Shown piece after piece: positions 4,183-18,159 of a DNA stretch of 21,529 nt (positions are counted from its first letter, which is position 1; each line of letters opens with the position of its first letter). The stretch comes from a virus. The translations under genes were made by a program, and so were the position numbers. Location of the stretch: the IMG/VR virus record IMGVR_UViG_3300031660_000065, positions 1-21,529 of that record. The stretch is one strand, 5' to 3'. Below the pieces are notes generated by a model. That model saw only the letters and a list, made by a program, of their open reading frames with translations. It ran no database searches and was not told the origin of the DNA.

Positions 4183-5492
4183 TGTCAGGCGGAAAAGGCG
4201 GCTCAAGCACAAACGAAGTCACGATCCCAGAATACATTGAGGCTGCCGCACAGCGTAACCTCAATAAAGCTGAACGTATTTCGAAGATTGGTTACACGCC
4301 ATACTATGGCCCAGATGTGGCGGCGTTTACGCCGATGCAGCAGGCGGCATTCCAGAACACAGCAGATACTGCTGGCGCATTTGGCATGGCTGCCCCAACA
4401 AGCCAGCAAGACATTATGGGCGGCATGGCAGCTCCGACGACATATGCAAACGGCGTTCAGGGTTACTCATCTGCGCCAATGTACGAGGAATCACTTGCCG
4501 AGCTTGGCAGGCAGCGTCCCGGTCAGAAAGCGTACATTGACAGCTTCTTTATTGACCCATTTACGGGCGGTGCAGGTTCTAACAACTTTGCTCCGATTGA
4601 CTACACGCAATATGGAACAATGGCACAAGATGCTCGCAACCAAGGTGACACGAACCGAGCGAATGATTTGGCAATTGCACGAGCAAGCGCAGGTCCGAGT
4701 TCGGTTTACTACGATTACAATAACGAGACCTACAACACTAGCAATCCAGCCAATACTTACATTACAAATCCGGGGGCTGGAATTACAGACACATCCCCAG
4801 CAAGCACTATTGGCGGCATAGGCAGTGACGTAAGCGAAGCTGTTATTAGCAACACAATTGGGTTGTTTAATCCAACGTATAGAACGGGCATGATAAACAA
4901 TCCTATTGCAAACCCCAGTGTCTCTGAGATGATTGAGGCTGCGCCAACCGGAATGGATTACAGCCCTACAACTGGAGGCTATGTCGCAAGTACACCTAGC
5001 GCGCCTGTATCGTCATCCCCCCGACCTCCGACAAAGGGCAAAATGCAAACAAATGGCGGGTTCACTGGCCTCAAGGATATGTTTGACGGCGGCGGTGCTG
5101 GTACAAGCGGTGACACACATAAAGACGCAGCTGGTAATGATAAAATTCTTTGCTGCGCTTACTACAATCTTGGCTATCTTCCCCGCGACATCTGGCGTCT
5201 TGACCAGCGTTATGGCGTTTGGTTGCACCGTAATGATCCAAAACTTATGAGTGGTTATTTGGCGTGGGCAAAACCTCTTGCTGAATACGTGCAAAAAGAC
5301 ACCCTCATGGCTAGAACCGTTAGAGCTGTTATGCGTCCAATCGTGGTCTGCTGGGCAAAGGAAATGGCTCACAACATGAAGCCAGAAAAGTACAAGCCGA
5401 ACTACGCCGGCAAACTGATTAAATTTATTGGCGAACCATTTAGCCGCATGTGCGGCAAACTGAAGTCTCGCAAGATTGAGGAGATGGTATAA
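4182..5492 (+). CDS. Putative internal virion / ejection-type protein with Cys-rich C-terminal domain
   Basis: 436 residues. The start overlaps the previous stop as TAATG and has AAGGAG upstream. Three parts can be seen: an N-terminal helical stretch of about 75 residues (NEVTIPEYIEAAAQRNLNKA, TPMQQAAFQNTADTAG) of the type shared by phage internal proteins; a long low-complexity Gly/Ser/Thr/Asn/Pro-rich middle up to about residue 320; and a compact C-terminal domain beginning ILCCAYYNLGYLPRDIW and ending in a basic KLKSRK stretch, with aromatic and cysteine residues (CCAYY, VVCWAKEM, FSRMCG). It leads the run of four large proteins before the portal, so I infer a particle-internal or DNA-ejection role. 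No enzyme signature is recognised. Confidence 0.6.
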   Translation: MSGGKGGSSTNEVTIPEYIEAAAQRNLNKAERISKIGYTPYYGPDVAAFTPMQQAAFQNTADTAGAFGMAAPTSQQDIMGGMAAPTTYANGVQGYSSAPMYEESLAELGRQRPGQKAYIDSFFIDPFTGGAGSNNFAPIDYTQYGTMAQDARNQGDTNRANDLAIARASAGPSSVYYDYNNETYNTSNPANTYITNPGAGITDTSPASTIGGIGSDVSEAVISNTIGLFNPTYRTGMINNPIANPSVSEMIEAAPTGMDYSPTTGGYVASTPSAPVSSSPRPPTKGKMQTNGGFTGLKDMFDGGGAGTSGDTHKDAAGNDKILCCAYYNLGYLPRDIWRLDQRYGVWLHRNDPKLMSGYLAWAKPLAEYVQKDTLMARTVRAVMRPIVVCWAKEMAHNMKPEKYKPNYAGKLIKFIGEPFSRMCGKLKSRKIEEMV

Positions 5493-7213
5493 TGGCGGGT
5501 TCAGGATCAGGCTTTAATCCAGTAGTAGGCCCAATGTCGTCTCAAGCGGCAGCGGGTGGCATTAACAATGCGCAACCCGGCATTTCGGCTATGGGCAGTG
5601 CAGGTAAAGGCGGCGCAAGCCTCAACCCAATCCCCTATGCTAACTACGACTTGGGTTCTAATGTTTCAGGAGTGTTGCCTGGCCCTCCTATATCTAACTT
5701 TAATCCTCAACAGTTTGGAGAAATTAGTGCTGTCGTGCCACCTAATGCGCAACCCGGCATTCCGCCGCTTGGCGATATTAGGCCAGACGTAATCAACCCG
5801 CGAGTCGGTTTTGAGCCAGCTCCTATTGAGGGAGCAGGCGGATTTACGCCGTCTTTTTCTGATGCAGGTAAAGGCGGCGCAAGCCTCGACCCAATCCCCT
5901 ATGCTAACTACGACTTGGGTTCTAATGTTTCGGGGGTTCTGCCTAACACTCAACCTCAAGGTGGAACATTTAATGCTGTCGCGCCACCTAATGCGCAATC
6001 TCCACAGTACGCACCAATGGCCCCACAGAGCGGCTTTAATGTGAACCAAGCATCTGCTGCGGGCAGTGCAAGTGATCTTATGAACATGATGGGCGGCGGT
6101 CCACAGCCAACGTCATCTAATGCGCAATCTGTGCAGGGTACGCAGCAGACACCAATGGCCCGACAGAGCGGCTTTAATGTGAACCAAGCATCTGCTGGCG
6201 CGCTTCAGCAGTCTCTTCAGGGTACGCAGCAGGCAATGGGTTATCAGCCGGGCAACATCGCAGCGGCGCAGTATCGCCCAGCGGAGCTTGGCGCTGCTGG
6301 CCAAGTCGCTGGTGCTGATTTAGGTGCCTACACCAACCCATACGAAGATCAAGTTGTTCAGCAGTCTCTGCGTGACCTTAGTGGTGCGCAGGAGAAATCG
6401 CTAAACCAGATGGGTGCGCAGGCAACGGCAGCCAATGCTTTCGGCGGGTCACGTCAGGGTATTGCTGAAGCTGAAACACGCAAAGCATACGGCGACCAAG
6501 CTACAAACATGGTTACTGGGCTTCGTTCTTCTGGGTTTCAAAATGCGCAGAACCTTGCAGGTCAAGATATTGCGCGTCAAATGCAAGTTAATGCTGCAAA
6601 CCAAGCTGCTCGCAATCAGGCTGGCCAGTTTAACGTCGGCAACATTATGAACGCGCAGCAGCAAAACATTGCCAACCAAATGTCAGGCAATCAGGCGCGT
6701 CTTGGCGCAGCAGCACAGCTTGGCGGACTTGGGCAGCAAGCATTCAACACTGGCCAAACAATTCAGCAGAACCAAGCGCAGCAGGGTCTTATGCAGCAGG
6801 GCTTGCAGCAAGCACTTATCGACGCAGCACGCGGCCAATATGCAGGCTATACAGGTGCGCCAAATCAAGCACTATCAGCACCGCTGGCTGCACTTGGCGT
6901 TACGCCAACGCCGCAGTCAACTACAAGCAGCAGACAGCCGGGCCTGTTTGATTACCTTAGCTTGGGTGCAACAGCAGCCGGAGCTTCTGACGCTCGCTTG
7001 AAAACTGACGTTACACCCGCTGGCAATATTGGCGGCTTCAACTTCTATAATTGGAAGTGGAATGACGAGGGCAAGCGGATTGCTGATCCAAAGCAACCGA
7101 CTTATGGCGTTATGGCTGACGAGGTTCAGGCAACGCATCCGCACTTGGTTAAGCGTGGCAAAGATGGCTACCTTCGCGTAAACTATCGTGAGCTAATGGG
7201 TGAGATAGCTTAA
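5492..7213 (+). CDS. Putative internal virion / tail protein with short C-terminal S74 chaperone domain
   Basis: 573 residues; TAATG overlap with the upstream gene. Residues 1-240 are low-complexity (Pro/Gly/Asn/Ala/Gln) and contain in-frame duplications at the DNA level. Residues about 245-470 form an Ala/Gln-rich helical region with the motif LGAYTNPYEDQVV..., NQMGAQATAANAFGGSRQG, which I know from phage proteins in ejection/tail blocks. Residues 499-573 are an S74 domain: S499-D-A-R-L-K504 fits the Ser/Lys dyad, with Y-G-V-M-A-D-E-V and a closing VNYREL element. In S74 proteins the domain chaperones trimer folding and cleaves before the serine. Its place among internal proteins rather than fibres is unusual. 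Confidence is high for S74, low for the location in the particle. Confidence 0.75.
   Translation: MAGSGSGFNPVVGPMSSQAAAGGINNAQPGISAMGSAGKGGASLNPIPYANYDLGSNVSGVLPGPPISNFNPQQFGEISAVVPPNAQPGIPPLGDIRPDVINPRVGFEPAPIEGAGGFTPSFSDAGKGGASLDPIPYANYDLGSNVSGVLPNTQPQGGTFNAVAPPNAQSPQYAPMAPQSGFNVNQASAAGSASDLMNMMGGGPQPTSSNAQSVQGTQQTPMARQSGFNVNQASAGALQQSLQGTQQAMGYQPGNIAAAQYRPAELGAAGQVAGADLGAYTNPYEDQVVQQSLRDLSGAQEKSLNQMGAQATAANAFGGSRQGIAEAETRKAYGDQATNMVTGLRSSGFQNAQNLAGQDIARQMQVNAANQAARNQAGQFNVGNIMNAQQQNIANQMSGNQARLGAAAQLGGLGQQAFNTGQTIQQNQAQQGLMQQGLQQALIDAARGQYAGYTGAPNQALSAPLAALGVTPTPQSTTSSRQPGLFDYLSLGATAAGASDARLKTDVTPAGNIGGFNFYNWKWNDEGKRIADPKQPTYGVMADEVQATHPHLVKRGKDGYLRVNYRELMGEIA
5600..5938 (+). repeat. 75-bp direct repeat pair inside the S74-containing gene
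   Basis: A 75-base stretch at 5600-5674 recurs at 5864-5938 with about four differences. The spacing of 264 bases is an exact multiple of three, so the repeat is in frame and encodes two near-identical peptides around AGKGGASL[N/D]PIPYANY. Shorter surrounding tracts (AATGCGCAACCCGGCATT at about 5568 and 5744) are also repeated. Confidence 0.9.
6013..6197 (+). repeat. 47-bp direct repeat pair inside the S74-containing gene
   Basis: Bases 6013-6059 recur at 6151-6197 with a single visible difference (CCC versus CCG). The offset is 138 bases (46 codons), so it is in frame and encodes PMA[P/R]QSGFNVNQASA twice. Each copy is preceded by a repeated AATGCGCAATCT tract (near 5990 and 6119), which suggests a larger original duplication. 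Confidence 0.9.
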
Positions 7214-8850
7214 TGAATATTAATGACCGGGAACTTCTAGCTAGAACCCTGCAAGCCGAAGCTGGCAATCAAGGCTTTGGTGGCATGATGGCTGCTGGCT
7301 CGGTCATTATGAATCGCACCAACGCTGCTGGCTATGGCAATGGCCTTCGTGGCGTTATCCTCAAGCCGGGTCAATTCTCGGCATGGAATAGCGCAACGGG
7401 TTATGCGGGTGGCGAGCAAGGTCAGGATATGGCCAACATGCGGGCGAGCGATGACGCCTATAAAGCGGCAGACGCGCTCATTACTGGCGGCTACGAAGAC
7501 AAGACTGGCGGCGCAACCCACTACTACAATCCGTCATTTTCCAACCCAGACTGGGGGCGTGATAAGGCTGGCGGTGACTGGAAGCAGATTGGCGACCATG
7601 TTTTTGGGTTTGCCGACGCAGACAAAAAGCCAAACCCCAATCAGGCTATTGCCGACGACACTATGCGTGCGCTTGGCAAGTCACCCAAGGGCATACTCGC
7701 GCCGACACAGACATCCGAAACGGAGACTAAACCGATGATGCAACAGCAAAAGCCACGCGGCTTACTTGAAAGACTCGGCGTACAAAAAATGGAAGAAGGC
7801 GCGGAAGGCGAAGCCGGACAGCGCTTTTATAACCGTGAGAGCTTTGGCGATACTCTTGCCAACCTAGCCCCAGCATTGGGTAGAATGGGTGTAATGGGGC
7901 TTGATGTGCCAGCTCAAGCAATGGCTAATAGCCGCCGTGAAGACAAGCTTGCAAAAGCAGCAACAGAAAAAGCCAAAGCGCAGGACAATGCTACTGGGCA
8001 ATGGCTTATTAGAAATGGGTTTAAGGCAATTGGTGAAGGAGTACTCAAAGGTGAGCTTTCGGGTGCTGCTGGCCTGCAAATGTCTCGGACGGCAACGCCT
8101 AAGACGACCGGCGCTGAGGACAAAATCGCACGCCTTGTATCAACGGGTGTGCCGCAAAACATTGCGACCGGAATGGTCGATGGAAGGCTTGTTGCAAAGC
8201 AAGACCCGGTTACTGGCGATACATTTGTGTTTGACATAGCAACGGGTCAAAAAGTATTCGGCTCAACTGGGGCGACGAACAATGACGCACAAGTAGCGCA
8301 GCCTGATGTAGTTGAAGGCTCACTTACTGGGCTGGACCCGACAAAAGCTACAGGTTTTACTGGTTACGCAAATAGCTGGCTGAATGTTGCAGCGGATGCG
8401 TTTGGCTTAAACCTTCCCGCTCCCAAAGCTGCGGAAGCTTCTTCGGCAATGAGGTCATTAGCCACCAGAACCATAGCATTAGCGGACACTGAGTTTGCCG
8501 GAAAACCGACTAATTTCCTTCGAGAAAGAGTTGAGCAAAACTTTTCAATCAATCCAGACCAATTTAAAATGGGTCCGAGGATGGCGCTTAAAAGGTCTAA
8601 TGTAATCATCAATATGCTTCAGGAAACTGTAGATGGTGCAAAATCAGTAATAAGCGGAGGTACTGCCACAGCTGATGCTAAAAAATCAGCGATGAACAGT
8701 TTACCTAAAGCCGAAGCCCTGCTGAGGGATTACATATCTCTAAGGGAGTCACTAAACCAAAACTTGGGGAATAGCGGCGGAGCAGTACAGGTTTCTCCAG
8801 ACGTGCAGGAGCTATACAAGCAGTACACATCTCCAGCAAAGGAACAATAA
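7213..8850 (+). CDS. Virion-associated SleB-type cell wall hydrolase fused to an internal protein
   Basis: 545 residues with TAATG overlap to the gene before. Residues 1-140 match the SleB / Hydrolase_2 fold: L-L-A-R-T-L-Q-A-E16-A-G-N carries the catalytic glutamate position of the family, followed by VIMNRT, LKPGQFSAWN and DHVFGF. These enzymes cleave the glycan strands of peptidoglycan. The remaining 400 residues are Ala/Lys/Gln-rich and helical with no recognised domain. As a particle protein it would open the wall during DNA entry, separately from the amidase at 17137-17793 used for lysis. Its position between ejection-type proteins and the portal supports this. Enzyme type is well supported; virion location is inferred. 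Confidence 0.82.
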   Translation: MNINDRELLARTLQAEAGNQGFGGMMAAGSVIMNRTNAAGYGNGLRGVILKPGQFSAWNSATGYAGGEQGQDMANMRASDDAYKAADALITGGYEDKTGGATHYYNPSFSNPDWGRDKAGGDWKQIGDHVFGFADADKKPNPNQAIADDTMRALGKSPKGILAPTQTSETETKPMMQQQKPRGLLERLGVQKMEEGAEGEAGQRFYNRESFGDTLANLAPALGRMGVMGLDVPAQAMANSRREDKLAKAATEKAKAQDNATGQWLIRNGFKAIGEGVLKGELSGAAGLQMSRTATPKTTGAEDKIARLVSTGVPQNIATGMVDGRLVAKQDPVTGDTFVFDIATGQKVFGSTGATNNDAQVAQPDVVEGSLTGLDPTKATGFTGYANSWLNVAADAFGLNLPAPKAAEASSAMRSLATRTIALADTEFAGKPTNFLRERVEQNFSINPDQFKMGPRMALKRSNVIINMLQETVDGAKSVISGGTATADAKKSAMNSLPKAEALLRDYISLRESLNQNLGNSGGAVQVSPDVQELYKQYTSPAKEQ

Positions 8851-15983: not shown

Positions 15984-16271
15984 ATGGCAAAGATTTCAGA
16001 AAAGATTAGCTTTGAGCATGACCACATGGTCATCAAGCAGCGCCACGACGTAAGCCAAGCGCTAAAAGATGCGCGAATGGCTAGGGACGCTGGAATAGGC
16101 ATGTCTGGAGAAAACCGAATTGTTGGTTTTTTGCAGCCAGCCATAATTGGTGCTTGGCTGAAAGAAGCAGGCGTGGCGTGGTCTGATACAGAAGCCGCTA
16201 AAGAGGTTGTCCAGAAAAAGATAATTTCCGGAGAGTTTGACAAGTTCCGTGTTTGGGGAGGTACTTACTAA
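15984..16271 (+). CDS. Conserved small phage protein, function unknown
   Basis: 95 residues starting four bases after the previous stop; the ribosome site is weak, which suggests reinitiation. The sequence (KISEKISFEHDHMVIKQ, RMARDAGIGMSGENRIVGFL, VVQKKIISGEFDKFRVWGGTY) belongs to a family I recognise by its closing FRVW(G/E)GTY element from the head regions of other podoviruses. The function is unknown. The protein is soluble and mixed alpha/beta, and its stop overlaps the start of the membrane protein that follows (TAATG). Confidence 0.72.
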   Translation: MAKISEKISFEHDHMVIKQRHDVSQALKDARMARDAGIGMSGENRIVGFLQPAIIGAWLKEAGVAWSDTEAAKEVVQKKIISGEFDKFRVWGGTY

Positions 16272-16504
16272 TGGAAATGGATTCACTATGGAACACTGGC
16301 CTGACAGCAGTAATTGCCTTTGTCGTGTGGTGGATCAAATCTCAAAAGGAAGAGCTTGACCGAGTGCGTATTTTATTAAACAGAACTCGCGAAGAAATGG
16401 CCAAAGAATACGTCACAAAGGCTGACAGCTCTGCCGTGATGAGCCAAATCGTTGCCAAGTTTGACCGTATTGAGGAGAAAATAGACCGATTGATGGAGCG
16501 GTGA
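16271..16504 (+). CDS. Membrane protein with coiled-coil tail (holin candidate)
   Basis: 77 residues from ATG 16271, whose GGGAGG site lies at about 16255-16260 and which overlaps the previous stop; a GTG- or ATG-initiated longer form is less likely. One membrane segment lies at residues about 8-22 (TGLTAVIAFVVWWI), followed by a charged coiled coil (EELDRVRILLNRTREEMAKE, AKFDRIEEKIDRLMER). This build is typical of small phage membrane proteins at the start of lysis cassettes. With one membrane span and a long cytoplasmic helix it could be a class III-like holin or an antiholin, but many such proteins are of unknown role. Confidence 0.65.
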   Translation: MEMDSLWNTGLTAVIAFVVWWIKSQKEELDRVRILLNRTREEMAKEYVTKADSSAVMSQIVAKFDRIEEKIDRLMER

Positions 16505-16507
16505 GCC

Positions 16508-16975
16508 ATGTCAATTCTGGCCACCATTTCAGCAGCAAACGCGGCCTACTCTGTCATAAAAAAGTGTTTGGAGAATGGTTCTGAGATCAATGGACTTATT
16601 GGTCAGGTTGGCAAATTCCTCACCGCAGAAGACGAGCTTAAAGAGGCGGTTAAGCGCAAGAAAAGCTCCCCGATAACGGCTATAACGGGCGGTGCCGAGG
16701 GTGATTGGGAAGAGTTCCAAGCACTCGAAGACCTAAAAGAAAAAAGACTTGAGCTTGAAAGCTGGTGCAGACTATATGGGCCACCCGGCACTTGGGATCG
16801 TTGGCAGCAATATCAGGCCGAGGCGCGCAAGGCTCGACGTGCAGCGCAGAAGCAAAAAGAAAAAGAGCGTGAAGAGCTGATGCAGGCTATAGCTTGGTCA
16901 TTTAGTGGGCTGGCCAGTGTCGGTGGCATTGGCGCACTTATATACTTCTTGGGCCGATATATGGAGCGTTGGTGA
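16508..16975 (+). CDS. Protein with C-terminal membrane segment (lysis-region, holin candidate)
   Basis: 155 residues beginning four bases after the previous gene. The N-terminal 60 residues are mildly hydrophobic helix (ILATISAANAAYSVIKKC, LIGQVGKFLTAEDELKEAV), the middle has a conserved-looking EGDWEEFQALEDLKEKRLELE and a WCRLYGPPGTWDRWQQYQAEAR element, followed by a highly charged helix and a single membrane segment at about 128-149 (IAWSFSGLASVGGIGALIYFLG). I have seen this build in marine phage genomes without an assigned function. A tail-anchored membrane protein at this place could be a holin or a holin regulator. No catalytic motif. Confidence 0.65.
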   Translation: MSILATISAANAAYSVIKKCLENGSEINGLIGQVGKFLTAEDELKEAVKRKKSSPITAITGGAEGDWEEFQALEDLKEKRLELESWCRLYGPPGTWDRWQQYQAEARKARRAAQKQKEKEREELMQAIAWSFSGLASVGGIGALIYFLGRYMERW

Positions 16976-17133
16976 TGTGGGTTCTTGTCTGGATGCAGCT
17001 AACGGCTGTCGTTACGCACTTTGAGATTGGGCAGTACGCCTCTGAGAATGATTGCTTTACTCAACTGACAAAGGCGACTGTACTTGTAACCAAGAACAAC
17101 GAGTACCTGCATTGCTTTAAGATAGGAGATTGA
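16975..17133 (+). CDS. 52-aa small protein with hydrophobic N-terminus
   Basis: An open frame from ATG 16975 to TGA 17131-17133, overlapping the previous stop (TGATG), with GGAG eight bases upstream. It reads MWVLVWMQLTAVVTHFEIGQ, and continues with DCFTQLTKATVLVTKNNEYLHCF. The hydrophobic N-terminus without a clear charged start could be a weak signal or membrane anchor, and two cysteines in the remaining part could pair in the periplasm. The overlap and site support expression. It sits directly before the amidase, so a role in lysis or its timing is possible, but is not shown. Confidence 0.7.
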   Translation: MWVLVWMQLTAVVTHFEIGQYASENDCFTQLTKATVLVTKNNEYLHCFKIGD

Positions 17134-17136
17134 CTG

Positions 17137-17793
17137 ATGAGAAAACTAGATAGCATATTCGTGCATTGCACAGCGACACGCGCAGAGTGGTGGGCTGGCC
17201 GTCGGTCCAGCGAGAAAGCTGCGGAGTGCAAGCGTTGGCATTTGGATCGTGGCTGGTCCGACGTGGGCTATAATTATTTCGTGGACCGTGATGGAACAAT
17301 TACAGAGGGTCGCCCGATTGAGGTGACGCCAGCCGCGCAGAAGGGCCACAACACAGGCTCTGTGGCGATTGCGCTATGGGGCGGACACGGCGGCGATCAA
17401 GACGACAAGTTTGAGGAAAACTTCACGCCAGAGCAGGATCGTGCGCTGCGTAAGCTAATTGCCCAACTGCGCATGGAATACCCATCAATCACAAAGGTGC
17501 GTGGACATAACGAGGTTTCGGCCAAGCAATGCCCATGCTTTCAAGTGACATCATGGCTAAACAGCGCAGAAACCGAAAAGAAGCCAGAGCGGAAGCGGAT
17601 TGCTCAAACCAAGACAATCCAAGCTTCTTCTGTTGCAAAGATGGCATCTGTTGCCACACCCCTTGTTGGTGTTGTAGGTGGTCTGCCTTGGCAGAACCTA
17701 GCCATAATGGCAGTGCTGGCAGTGGTGGCGATGGTGGCGTTGGGCGTGATTGATTTGGAGCGTCTCAGCAAATGGAATAAGGGCGACAGATAA
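17137..17793 (+). CDS. Endolysin: N-acetylmuramoyl-L-alanine amidase (T7-lysozyme type) with C-terminal membrane segment
   Basis: 218 residues. Residues 1-140 form an Amidase_2 domain: zinc ligands H10 (FVHCTAT), H124 (VRGHNE) and C132, with Y45 (DVGYNYFVDRDG) and K130 (AKQC) at the positions of the catalytic Tyr46 and Lys128 of T7 lysozyme. It would cut the bond between muramic acid and the stem peptide in peptidoglycan. Beyond about 145 comes a basic linker and then two hydrophobic stretches (about 170-182 and 187-206, NLAIMAVLAVVAMVALGVI), which T7 lysozyme lacks; the enzyme is probably anchored in a membrane. No N-terminal signal is seen. It is followed at once by the spanin genes. Enzyme call strong; the anchor is inferred. 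Confidence 0.9.
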   Translation: MRKLDSIFVHCTATRAEWWAGRRSSEKAAECKRWHLDRGWSDVGYNYFVDRDGTITEGRPIEVTPAAQKGHNTGSVAIALWGGHGGDQDDKFEENFTPEQDRALRKLIAQLRMEYPSITKVRGHNEVSAKQCPCFQVTSWLNSAETEKKPERKRIAQTKTIQASSVAKMASVATPLVGVVGGLPWQNLAIMAVLAVVAMVALGVIDLERLSKWNKGDR

Positions 17794-18035
17794 TGTTTTT
17801 GCTGGGTAAACTAAAGCTGTATGCAGCGTTGATCGGCGCTGCGGCATTGGCCATTGTAACCGTGTACTACAGGGGCCGTGCCGATGGCCGCGATGAGTTA
17901 GAATACGAAATCAAGGATGATCGCCTTGAGAAAATATTGACAGCGAAAGAGGTCGAAGATGAATTGCAAAATGCTAGTGATGCTGACATTGCTGCCCGTG
18001 CTAGTCGCTGGGTGCGGAGTGACAGTGACGGGTGA
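17793..18035 (+). CDS. Rz: Inner-membrane spanin (Rz-like)
   Basis: 80 residues; TAATG overlap with the amidase. One N-terminal membrane segment (about 6-25, LKLYAALIGAAALAIVTVYY) is followed by a charged, helical periplasmic part (DELEYEIKDDRLEKILTAKE) of coiled-coil type. This is the build of an i-spanin, which joins the outer-membrane lipoprotein below to fuse the membranes in the last step of lysis. It is shorter than lambda Rz (153 residues). The Rz1-like gene begins inside its 3' end, in another frame. The call rests on build and arrangement rather than sequence identity. Confidence 0.85.
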   Translation: MFLLGKLKLYAALIGAAALAIVTVYYRGRADGRDELEYEIKDDRLEKILTAKEVEDELQNASDADIAARASRWVRSDSDG

Positions 18036-18159
18036 CACTTACTGCGATATTTCGCGTGTCATTACGTTTAAAGATCAGTCGGTGGTGGACTGGACTGACG
18101 CGGATTTGCTGCGCCAGATTGTGCGGCACAATGAGACCCGCGAAAAGTTGTGTAAATAA
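17959..18159 (+). CDS. Rz1: Outer-membrane spanin lipoprotein (Rz1-like)
   Basis: 66 residues starting inside the Rz-like gene in a different frame, with GAGG six bases upstream of ATG 17959. The N-terminus is a lipoprotein signal: a short basic start (MNCK), a hydrophobic core (MLVMLTLLPVLV) and a lipobox V-A-G-C19. Cleavage and lipidation at C19 would give a mature protein of 48 residues exposed to the periplasm. This is what the o-spanin partner of an Rz protein must look like. The 77-base overlap is the arrangement of many phage spanin pairs. The presence of an o-spanin shows that the host has an outer membrane. Confidence 0.87.
   Translation: MNCKMLVMLTLLPVLVAGCGVTVTGDTYCDISRVITFKDQSVVDWTDADLLRQIVRHNETREKLCK

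Follow-up and report, generated by a model that had tools for sequence, protein, structure and literature searches.

Judged from sequence comparison, the hydrophobic hairpin at the C-terminus of this phage endolysin is a distinct, selected and mobile module found behind catalytic domains of five Pfam families. The preliminary description of the gene dealt with one anchored amidase, and the main point added here is that the hairpin is common to different catalytic domains. We regard the anatomy and modularity of the hairpin endolysin as almost certain. Our preferred reading, with a probability of roughly 0.55, is that the protein combines a replaceable catalytic domain, tethered at the inner membrane, with a conserved hairpin that would deliver the enzyme together with a small partner.

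The endolysin and its C-terminal hairpin

The window analyzed here is the whole stretch of 21,529 bases; it is a complete IMG/VR entry, which may nevertheless be a fragment. Its portal and capsid proteins match SU10 families, and the source phage is probably marine. A large protein of the structural region (positions 7213 to 8850) begins with a Hydrolase_2 cell-wall hydrolase domain (8.9e-20) and is perhaps a virion-associated lysin. Two different proteins (190 to 1035 and 5492 to 7213) carry Peptidase_S74 chaperone domains at or near the C-terminus.

The endolysin gene lies in a lysis cassette (Table 1), and its TAA stop overlaps the ATG of the Rz-like gene. Amidase_2 (PF01510) matched residues 3 to 133 (E = 8.9e-16; 58.8 bits against a cut-off of 26), and the T7 lysozyme structure 1lba, which was also the first PDB match of the AlphaFold model, aligned with residues 4 to 144 (E = 1.9e-27). 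The preliminary description had claimed a match at the five key positions of T7 lysozyme. Indeed, the active-site residues of that enzyme, which we take to be H17, Y46, H122, K128, and C130, align with the five listed in Table 1, and none of these columns varies when the window protein is aligned with 20 relatives. By its domain, zinc ligands, and catalytic Tyr and Lys, the endolysin is of the T7-lysozyme Amidase_2 type and is a predicted amidase. T7 lysozyme (gp3.5) shares this catalytic fold, the zinc ligands, and the catalytic residues but has no C-terminal membrane part, as had been stated, whereas the window endolysin continues for about 74 residues past the aligned domain, more than the 50 or so first estimated.

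These residues form a basic linker, a weak segment, a strong transmembrane (TM) segment, and a cationic tail. Both of the hydrophobic stretches described earlier are present, but they are not equivalent: residues 187 to 205 are strongly hydrophobic (Kyte-Doolittle [KD] value of 2.65, the highest among the 27 open reading frames [ORFs] measured in the window), and residues 165 to 183 only weakly so (1.42). In the AlphaFold model, the former lie in a long helix (185 to 214) of moderate confidence (pLDDT ∼59 to 78), while the latter have a pLDDT of ∼37 to 38 and include just a short low-confidence helix (164 to 172). The model of a GH24 relative with the hairpin has a low-confidence helix (167 to 184), a short loop, and a second helix (189 to 218). 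Since TM1 falls under the usual TM threshold and is of low confidence in both models, a two-pass hairpin is not proven.

Table 1. Features of the endolysin gene and its neighbors (positions in the window)
Feature	Position	Strand	Details
Small protein, 83 aa as called	16253..16504	+	phrog_462 1.5e-10; weak N-terminal hydrophobic segment, max KD 1.23; probable coiled coil
155-aa protein, C-terminal hydrophobic segment (KD 1.6)	16508..16975	+	phrog_32327 1.1e-12
Small ORF, hydrophobic N-terminus	16975..17133	+	start at 16975 more plausible-looking than 16969
Shine-Dalgarno-like AGGAG	17124..17128	+	8 nt ahead of endolysin ATG
Endolysin gene	17137..17793	+	218 aa plus stop; phrog_822 amidase, 1.5e-52
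Catalytic domain, T7-lysozyme-type zinc amidase	17137..17568	+	residues 1-144; H10, Y45, H124, K130, C132
Variable basic linker	17569..17604	+	residues 145-156; pLDDT <50 from residue 149
C-terminal hairpin module	17605..17790	+	residues 157-218, QTKT hook to last residue
TM1, weakly hydrophobic segment	17629..17685	+	residues 165-183; KD 1.42; low-confidence model
TM2, strong transmembrane segment	17695..17751	+	residues 187-205; KD 2.65; within modeled helix 185-214
Conserved cationic tail ERLxKWxxGxR	17752..17790	+	residues 206-218
i-spanin (Rz-like)	17793..18035	+	phrog_1026 1.5e-10
o-spanin (Rz1-like)	17959..18159	+	phrog_1275 2.7e-10; other frame, overlaps Rz; lipobox-like VAGC

The conserved features of the hairpin are a QS[KRT]T hook, a short LDGTAQ-like loop, which reads PWQ or EWQK in the group of the window, and an ERLxxWxxGxR tail. 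Across 109 non-redundant modules, TM1 has a median KD of 1.35 with 63% small residues and TM2 a median of 2.48 with 32%. The loop is free of K and R in 103 of the 109, and the median net charge is +1 in the N-flank, −1 in the loop, and +2 in the C-flank. Every module (109/109) has more K plus R in each flank than in the loop, a result that follows in part from the unequal lengths compared, 25 residues for a flank and 0 to 7 for the loop. From hydropathy and charge, we infer that the hairpin inserts N-in/C-in, with the strong TM2 as the anchor and a weak, small-residue-rich TM1. The earlier proposal that the enzyme is held at the membrane gains support from hydropathy and conservation, and tethering at the inner membrane appears highly probable. 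A signal-anchor-release (SAR) endolysin of the N-terminal type was rejected: no hydrophobic segment at a KD of at least 1.0 was found at the N-terminus of the protein, whose Pfam domain begins at residue 3, and no weakly hydrophobic TM segment precedes the enzyme.

Conservation and selection

A search of viral contigs with the endolysin returned 36 related loci, of which 32 are full length. The preliminary description had made its proposal depend on homologues keeping the hydrophobic part, and the proposal withstood this check. Both segments were present at a KD of at least 1.0 in all 32 full-length close homologues, although several of the tails are identical and the 32 are therefore not independent cases, and the cultured roseophages CRP-811 and CRP-406 retain the hairpin with a diverged sequence. 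Hairpin-bearing loci were also found on bacterial contigs. The amidases of T7 and of Rhodovulum phage P1, which are more distant, lack the hairpin.

Two further loci and one genome bin deserve mention. The amidase of Rhodovulum phage P1 (L039, 3001 to 3495) has, in place of the hairpin, a short cationic end that by eye is possibly amphipathic. The CRP-811 product annotated as "N-acetylmuramidase/lysin" (L037, 3213 to 3755) gave no Pfam or PHROGs lysin domain, just weak tail-assembly matches. A single Rhodobacteraceae MAG carries the same amidase-hairpin endolysin at eight loci on seven contigs (L141 to L148); the first is 99.3 to 100% identical to the other copies over 4.5 to 8.2 kb, and they may represent a transposable prophage present in several copies or a duplication introduced by assembly.

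Selection was estimated on 11 equal-length genes chosen from the window and related loci; after exclusion of pairs whose dS was saturated or very low, 18 to 43 of the 55 pairs remained per region. The median dN/dS was 0.069 for residues 1 to 141, 0.224 for the linker (142 to 156), and 0.068 for the hairpin. Within the hairpin, it was 0.072 for hook plus TM1, 0.024 for TM2 (residues 186 to 206), and 0.098 for the tail. By this measure the hairpin is under purifying selection equal to that of the enzyme and is more than chance hydrophobicity. Selection of this strength, together with the conserved motifs, suggests that more than bulk hydrophobicity is being maintained.

A hairpin shared by different catalytic domains

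The C-terminus of the CRP-406 endolysin, used as the sole query, matched CRP-118 and CRP-403; in both, it forms the end of a protein that has a CHAP domain and a hypothetical annotation. Cultured phages thus possess both an amidase and a CHAP form. A profile of nine hairpin sequences matched 214 places in IMG/VR, of which the best 80 were taken, and a profile of twenty sequences matched 338, the best 80 of which overlap the first set. An upstream stop, and hence a complete 5′ end, was present in 72 of the best 80 from the nine-sequence profile. Among these 72 proteins the Pfam domain before the hairpin was GH24 (28), Amidase_2 (17), M15_4 (12), CHAP (7), or M15_3 (6); L111, which received no Pfam assignment, matches TIGR02594 at 1.9e-33. 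M15_3 and M15_4 may share a fold, so that the five families presumably represent four folds.

Pairs of loci with nearly identical flanks record the exchange itself. From 19 nt before the hairpin onward, a GH24 form (L073) and an amidase form (L074) share 94.2% DNA identity over 2483 bases; ahead of the gene they share 85.7% over 154 bases, and their catalytic regions cannot be aligned. Two other GH24 loci (L075 and L076) are 97.3% identical to an amidase locus (L080) over 369 bases upstream, the identity between L076 and L080 stopping 6 nt before the start codon, and again 98.8% and 98.5% identical over 325 and 206 bases, respectively, from 10 nt before the hairpin. The third case joins M15_3 (L171) to M15_4 (L184), domains that may share a fold; here the identity is 75.4% over 187 bases upstream and reaches 98.8% over the 2636 bases that begin 16 nt before the hairpin. 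Any single contig could be chimeric; in the GH24/amidase set the GH24 form is supported by three contigs and the amidase form by two, and in the M15 pair each form by one. These comparisons indicate that the catalytic domain is exchanged in front of a retained hairpin in related phages.

No clear stand-alone hairpin was found among 204 hairpin ORFs from all loci, duplicates and the window included. Fewer than 90 residues precede the hairpin in seven of them, six of which run off the contig end and one of which is apparently frameshifted. In the proteins scanned, no family model covered the hairpin above its curated cut-off. Weak matches linked it, C-terminus to C-terminus, to phrog_17373, "peptidase" (E = 0.011 and 0.037), and the best Pfam match of five hairpins was ABC2_membrane, at an implausible 0.0019 below its cut-off. 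With hairpins alone as queries, tblastn gave four matches in 50,697 phage records, and the window's own hairpin or the diverged GH24 tail gave none among these records. The hairpin profile matched nine of 385 alphaproteobacterial genomes at an E of 0.01, with at most 16 candidates scored per genome, and the single strong match was the centre genome. A description of this hairpin family or of its modularity was not found among the open-access PMC papers searched, nor was an experiment on any of its members, and the main text of the CRP-118 paper is without the words endolysin, holin, lysozyme, amidase, and transmembrane.

Comparison with known systems

The view that a C-terminal anchor is unusual on an endolysin stands for this amidase type but not in general, given Siskin, Enc34, M4Lys, and LysAP. 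Two C-terminal TMs are predicted for the endolysins of Siskin and Enc34, whereas M4Lys and LysAP, the GH24 endolysin of Acidovorax phage AP1, are each described with a C-terminal TM. Full-length M4Lys and LysAP each lyse Escherichia coli alone, and deletion of the TM abolishes lysis in both; the M4 TM domain by itself causes stasis but no lysis, and Enc34 ORF39 was toxic in its full-length form only. The authors' predictions are N-in/C-in for the Siskin endolysin, with a "class IV" N-out/C-in holin, and N-out/C-in for M4Lys. Azide is reported to have delayed LysAP and not to have blocked M4Lys, so that the analogues disagree on the export route. According to the Discussion of the Enc34 report, C-terminal two-helix endolysins appear restricted to the chi-like phage clade, and its authors know of no mechanism exporting an N-terminal domain via a C-terminal signal. 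With such endolysins known in chi-like phages, and a C-terminal TM in LysAP, the architecture itself is not new.

The chi-like endolysins (Siskin, Enc34 ORF39, and M4Lys) share with the window the layout of enzyme, linker, and predicted C-terminal membrane domain, and both kinds of cassette have an Rz1-like gene. The chi-like cassettes have a small one-TM protein just upstream, a putative class IV holin in Siskin; a small upstream protein with a TM-like segment is present in 77 of 90 hairpin loci, and in the window the 83-aa protein reaches a KD of 1.23 and its 155-aa neighbor 1.6. Their catalytic domain is PHA02564, in contrast with Amidase_2 in the window, and catalytic swapping is not reported for them in the portions available. 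Homology of the hairpin to the M4Lys membrane domain was not supported (hhalign probability of 2%; 7/60 block and 0/60 full shuffles as high). Because no convincing relation emerged, the analogy is one of architecture.

LysAP has a strong C-terminal TM and a cationic tail with ERVKVRREGW, like the hairpin endolysins. The hairpin aligns with LysAP-type tails at an E of 6.4e-5, over 17 columns after realignment (1/60 block and 0/60 full shuffles as high), and is possibly related to them. Two close LysAP relatives have one hydrophobic segment at a KD of at least 1.2, whereas the window hairpin has two; among the 80 matches listed for LysAP, 76 have no hydrophobic tail, three have one segment, and one has two. 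Its partner HolAP matches Phage_holin_2_4 just above the cut-off. Kinship with the tails of a few alphaproteobacterial GH24 proteins is supported (probability of 79%; E = 1.6e-5; no block or full shuffle as high in 60 each). A two-segment tail occurs in three of 30 such loci fetched, the other 27 having none. These tails gave an E of 0.0022 (probability of 13%) against the M4Lys type and of 4.4e-4 (34%) against the LysAP type.

A hairpin GH24 protein (L060, 2518 to 3183) aligns over residues 2 to 213 with the model of BgtA, the endolysin of the Bartonella GTA (BaGTA) and, like SpmX, a GH24 protein of Alphaproteobacteria, at 7.3e-45. The alignment runs through the hairpin and lies below the cut-off of the model (153 of 315 bits). 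The same protein aligns over its lysozyme part (3 to 153) with SpmX at 8.9e-29, likewise below cut-off. Both alignments hint at a relationship to lysozymes that Alphaproteobacteria have domesticated. SpmX, which acts in cell polarity, has two C-terminal TMs after its lysozyme domain; the authors of PMC5347347 place it largely in the cytoplasm and cite an earlier suggestion of the periplasm. The window amidase matches neither the BgtA nor the SpmX model.

Class II holins (P21 S and EssD; PF04971) form a two-TM hairpin, and the resemblance was judged by eye; the window hairpin differs in being fused to an enzyme. A relation to them was tried and dropped, since hhalign against EssD as a single sequence was null and PF04971 was above cut-off in 0/8 records, tests that are weak because the EssD relatives (best 80 of 585) are 96 to 100% identical and yield no diverse profile. 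In the holin-endolysin fusion reported for Clostridium sporogenes, the order is the opposite, with the cargo at the holin C-terminus.

The lysis cassette

Small TM proteins were defined as having at most 170 aa and a segment with a KD of at least 1.5, with ORFs called mechanically. Such a protein lies within 1.3 kb upstream of the endolysin in 77 of 90 hairpin loci, directly adjacent in 63, and none was found in 13; a control stretch 1.0 to 2.3 kb upstream held one in 18 of 78. The 29 upstream ORFs inspected are mostly of ∼70 to 110 aa and combine a single hydrophobic segment with a probable coiled coil. By eye, the small TM proteins seem to belong to several families, and two of 10 upstream ORFs scanned gave weak XhlA-like matches below cut-off. 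The 83-aa protein of the window is a possible holin or partner. Downstream, mechanical calling in 103 loci gave an i-spanin-like ORF in 87 and a lipobox-like one in 68, with 60 loci having the two together.

The 155-aa neighbor was rejected as an obligate partner, its family being found in 35 of the 176 loci, counted with duplicates, whose upstream sequence spans 700 bases or more; in one of these 35 it lies downstream. Proteins of this family (149 to 156 aa, with a C-terminal hydrophobic segment) precede hairpin endolysins that differ in catalytic type, for example, at 16508 to 16975 in the window, 3083 to 3553 in L038, and 1616 to 2065 in L042. The CRP-406 member is annotated as "peptidase" and has no Pfam match.

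Proposed mode of action

In the reading that we prefer, the enzyme would wait on the cytoplasmic face, tethered N-in/C-in, by analogy with M4Lys, Enc34, and LysAP. At the time of lysis, the hairpins and the small TM partner would, again by analogy, reorganize the membrane and thereby give the attached enzyme access to the peptidoglycan, and Rz/Rz1 would afterwards disrupt the outer membrane. That hairpin and partner play an active role in delivery, as the analogues and the selection on the hairpin suggest, is an evenly balanced proposition. Rather tentative is the extension that one hairpin family, maintained by selection and recombination as amidase, lysozyme, and peptidase domains replace one another ahead of it, translocates any muralytic enzyme it carries.

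The hairpin might instead, in line with the combined endolysin-holin suggested in the preliminary description, be a complete holin in cis, the hairpins assembling, permeabilizing the membrane, and carrying their own enzyme across with no other holin. The lysis by M4Lys and LysAP alone and the bacteriostatic M4 TM domain are consistent with this. So is the resemblance, by eye, of a small-residue-rich TM1 and strong TM2 to holins, and among the 27 ORFs measured in the window, itself possibly a fragment, only the endolysin, Rz, and Rz1 exceed a KD of 1.60. We nevertheless consider it somewhat unlikely. Most loci have a separate small TM protein ahead of the gene, the hairpin was not clearly seen alone in the 204 ORFs, the tests against EssD and PF04971, weak as they are, gave no relation, and the M4 TM domain without its enzyme gave no lysis. 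An intragenic holin start was not apparent either: internal Shine-Dalgarno-start sites before the hairpin are not enriched (0.0049 versus 0.0044 per codon), and a Shine-Dalgarno-ATG site occurs in one of 109.

A passive tether, in which the hairpin just holds the enzyme and the hole is left to a distinct holin, possibly the small TM protein upstream, would account for the hydropathy and charge of the hairpin and for the frequency of that protein (77/90). It fits less well with selection equal to that on the enzyme, with the conserved hook, loop, and tail motifs, and with the loss of lysis on TM deletion in the published analogues, and we hold it to be unlikely.

A C-terminal SAR arrangement, in which TM2 alone spans the membrane and export leaves the enzyme N-out/C-in until depolarization releases it, as proposed for LysAP, seems more unlikely still. 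The weakness of TM1 and the similarity to LysAP-type tails agree with it, as do the azide result and model of the LysAP authors and the N-out/C-in prediction of the M4Lys authors. However, the basic linker ahead of TM1 favors a cytoplasmic N-side, an N-terminal hydrophobic segment is absent, and the Enc34 authors are aware of no export route of this kind.

Single metagenome contigs can be chimeric and locus L090 looks frameshifted, but 36 related loci, cultured phages, bacterial contigs, and purifying selection leave next to no chance that the hydrophobic end is an artefact of a frameshift, of assembly fusion with a neighbor gene, or of chance hydrophobicity.

Implications for phage lysis

The C-terminal two-helix layout recurs here with a different hairpin on five Pfam catalytic families, cultured roseophages included. 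Natural swaps within near-identical flanks separate the role of the hairpin from that of the enzyme, which makes the question of membrane crossing testable. A hairpin that works alike with amidases, muramidases, and endopeptidases would be expected to act by a mechanism independent of the fold of the cargo. Should one hairpin family indeed deliver whichever enzyme it carries, many phages of Alphaproteobacteria would use a lysis route distinct from both the canonical holin-endolysin and the N-terminal SAR pathways.
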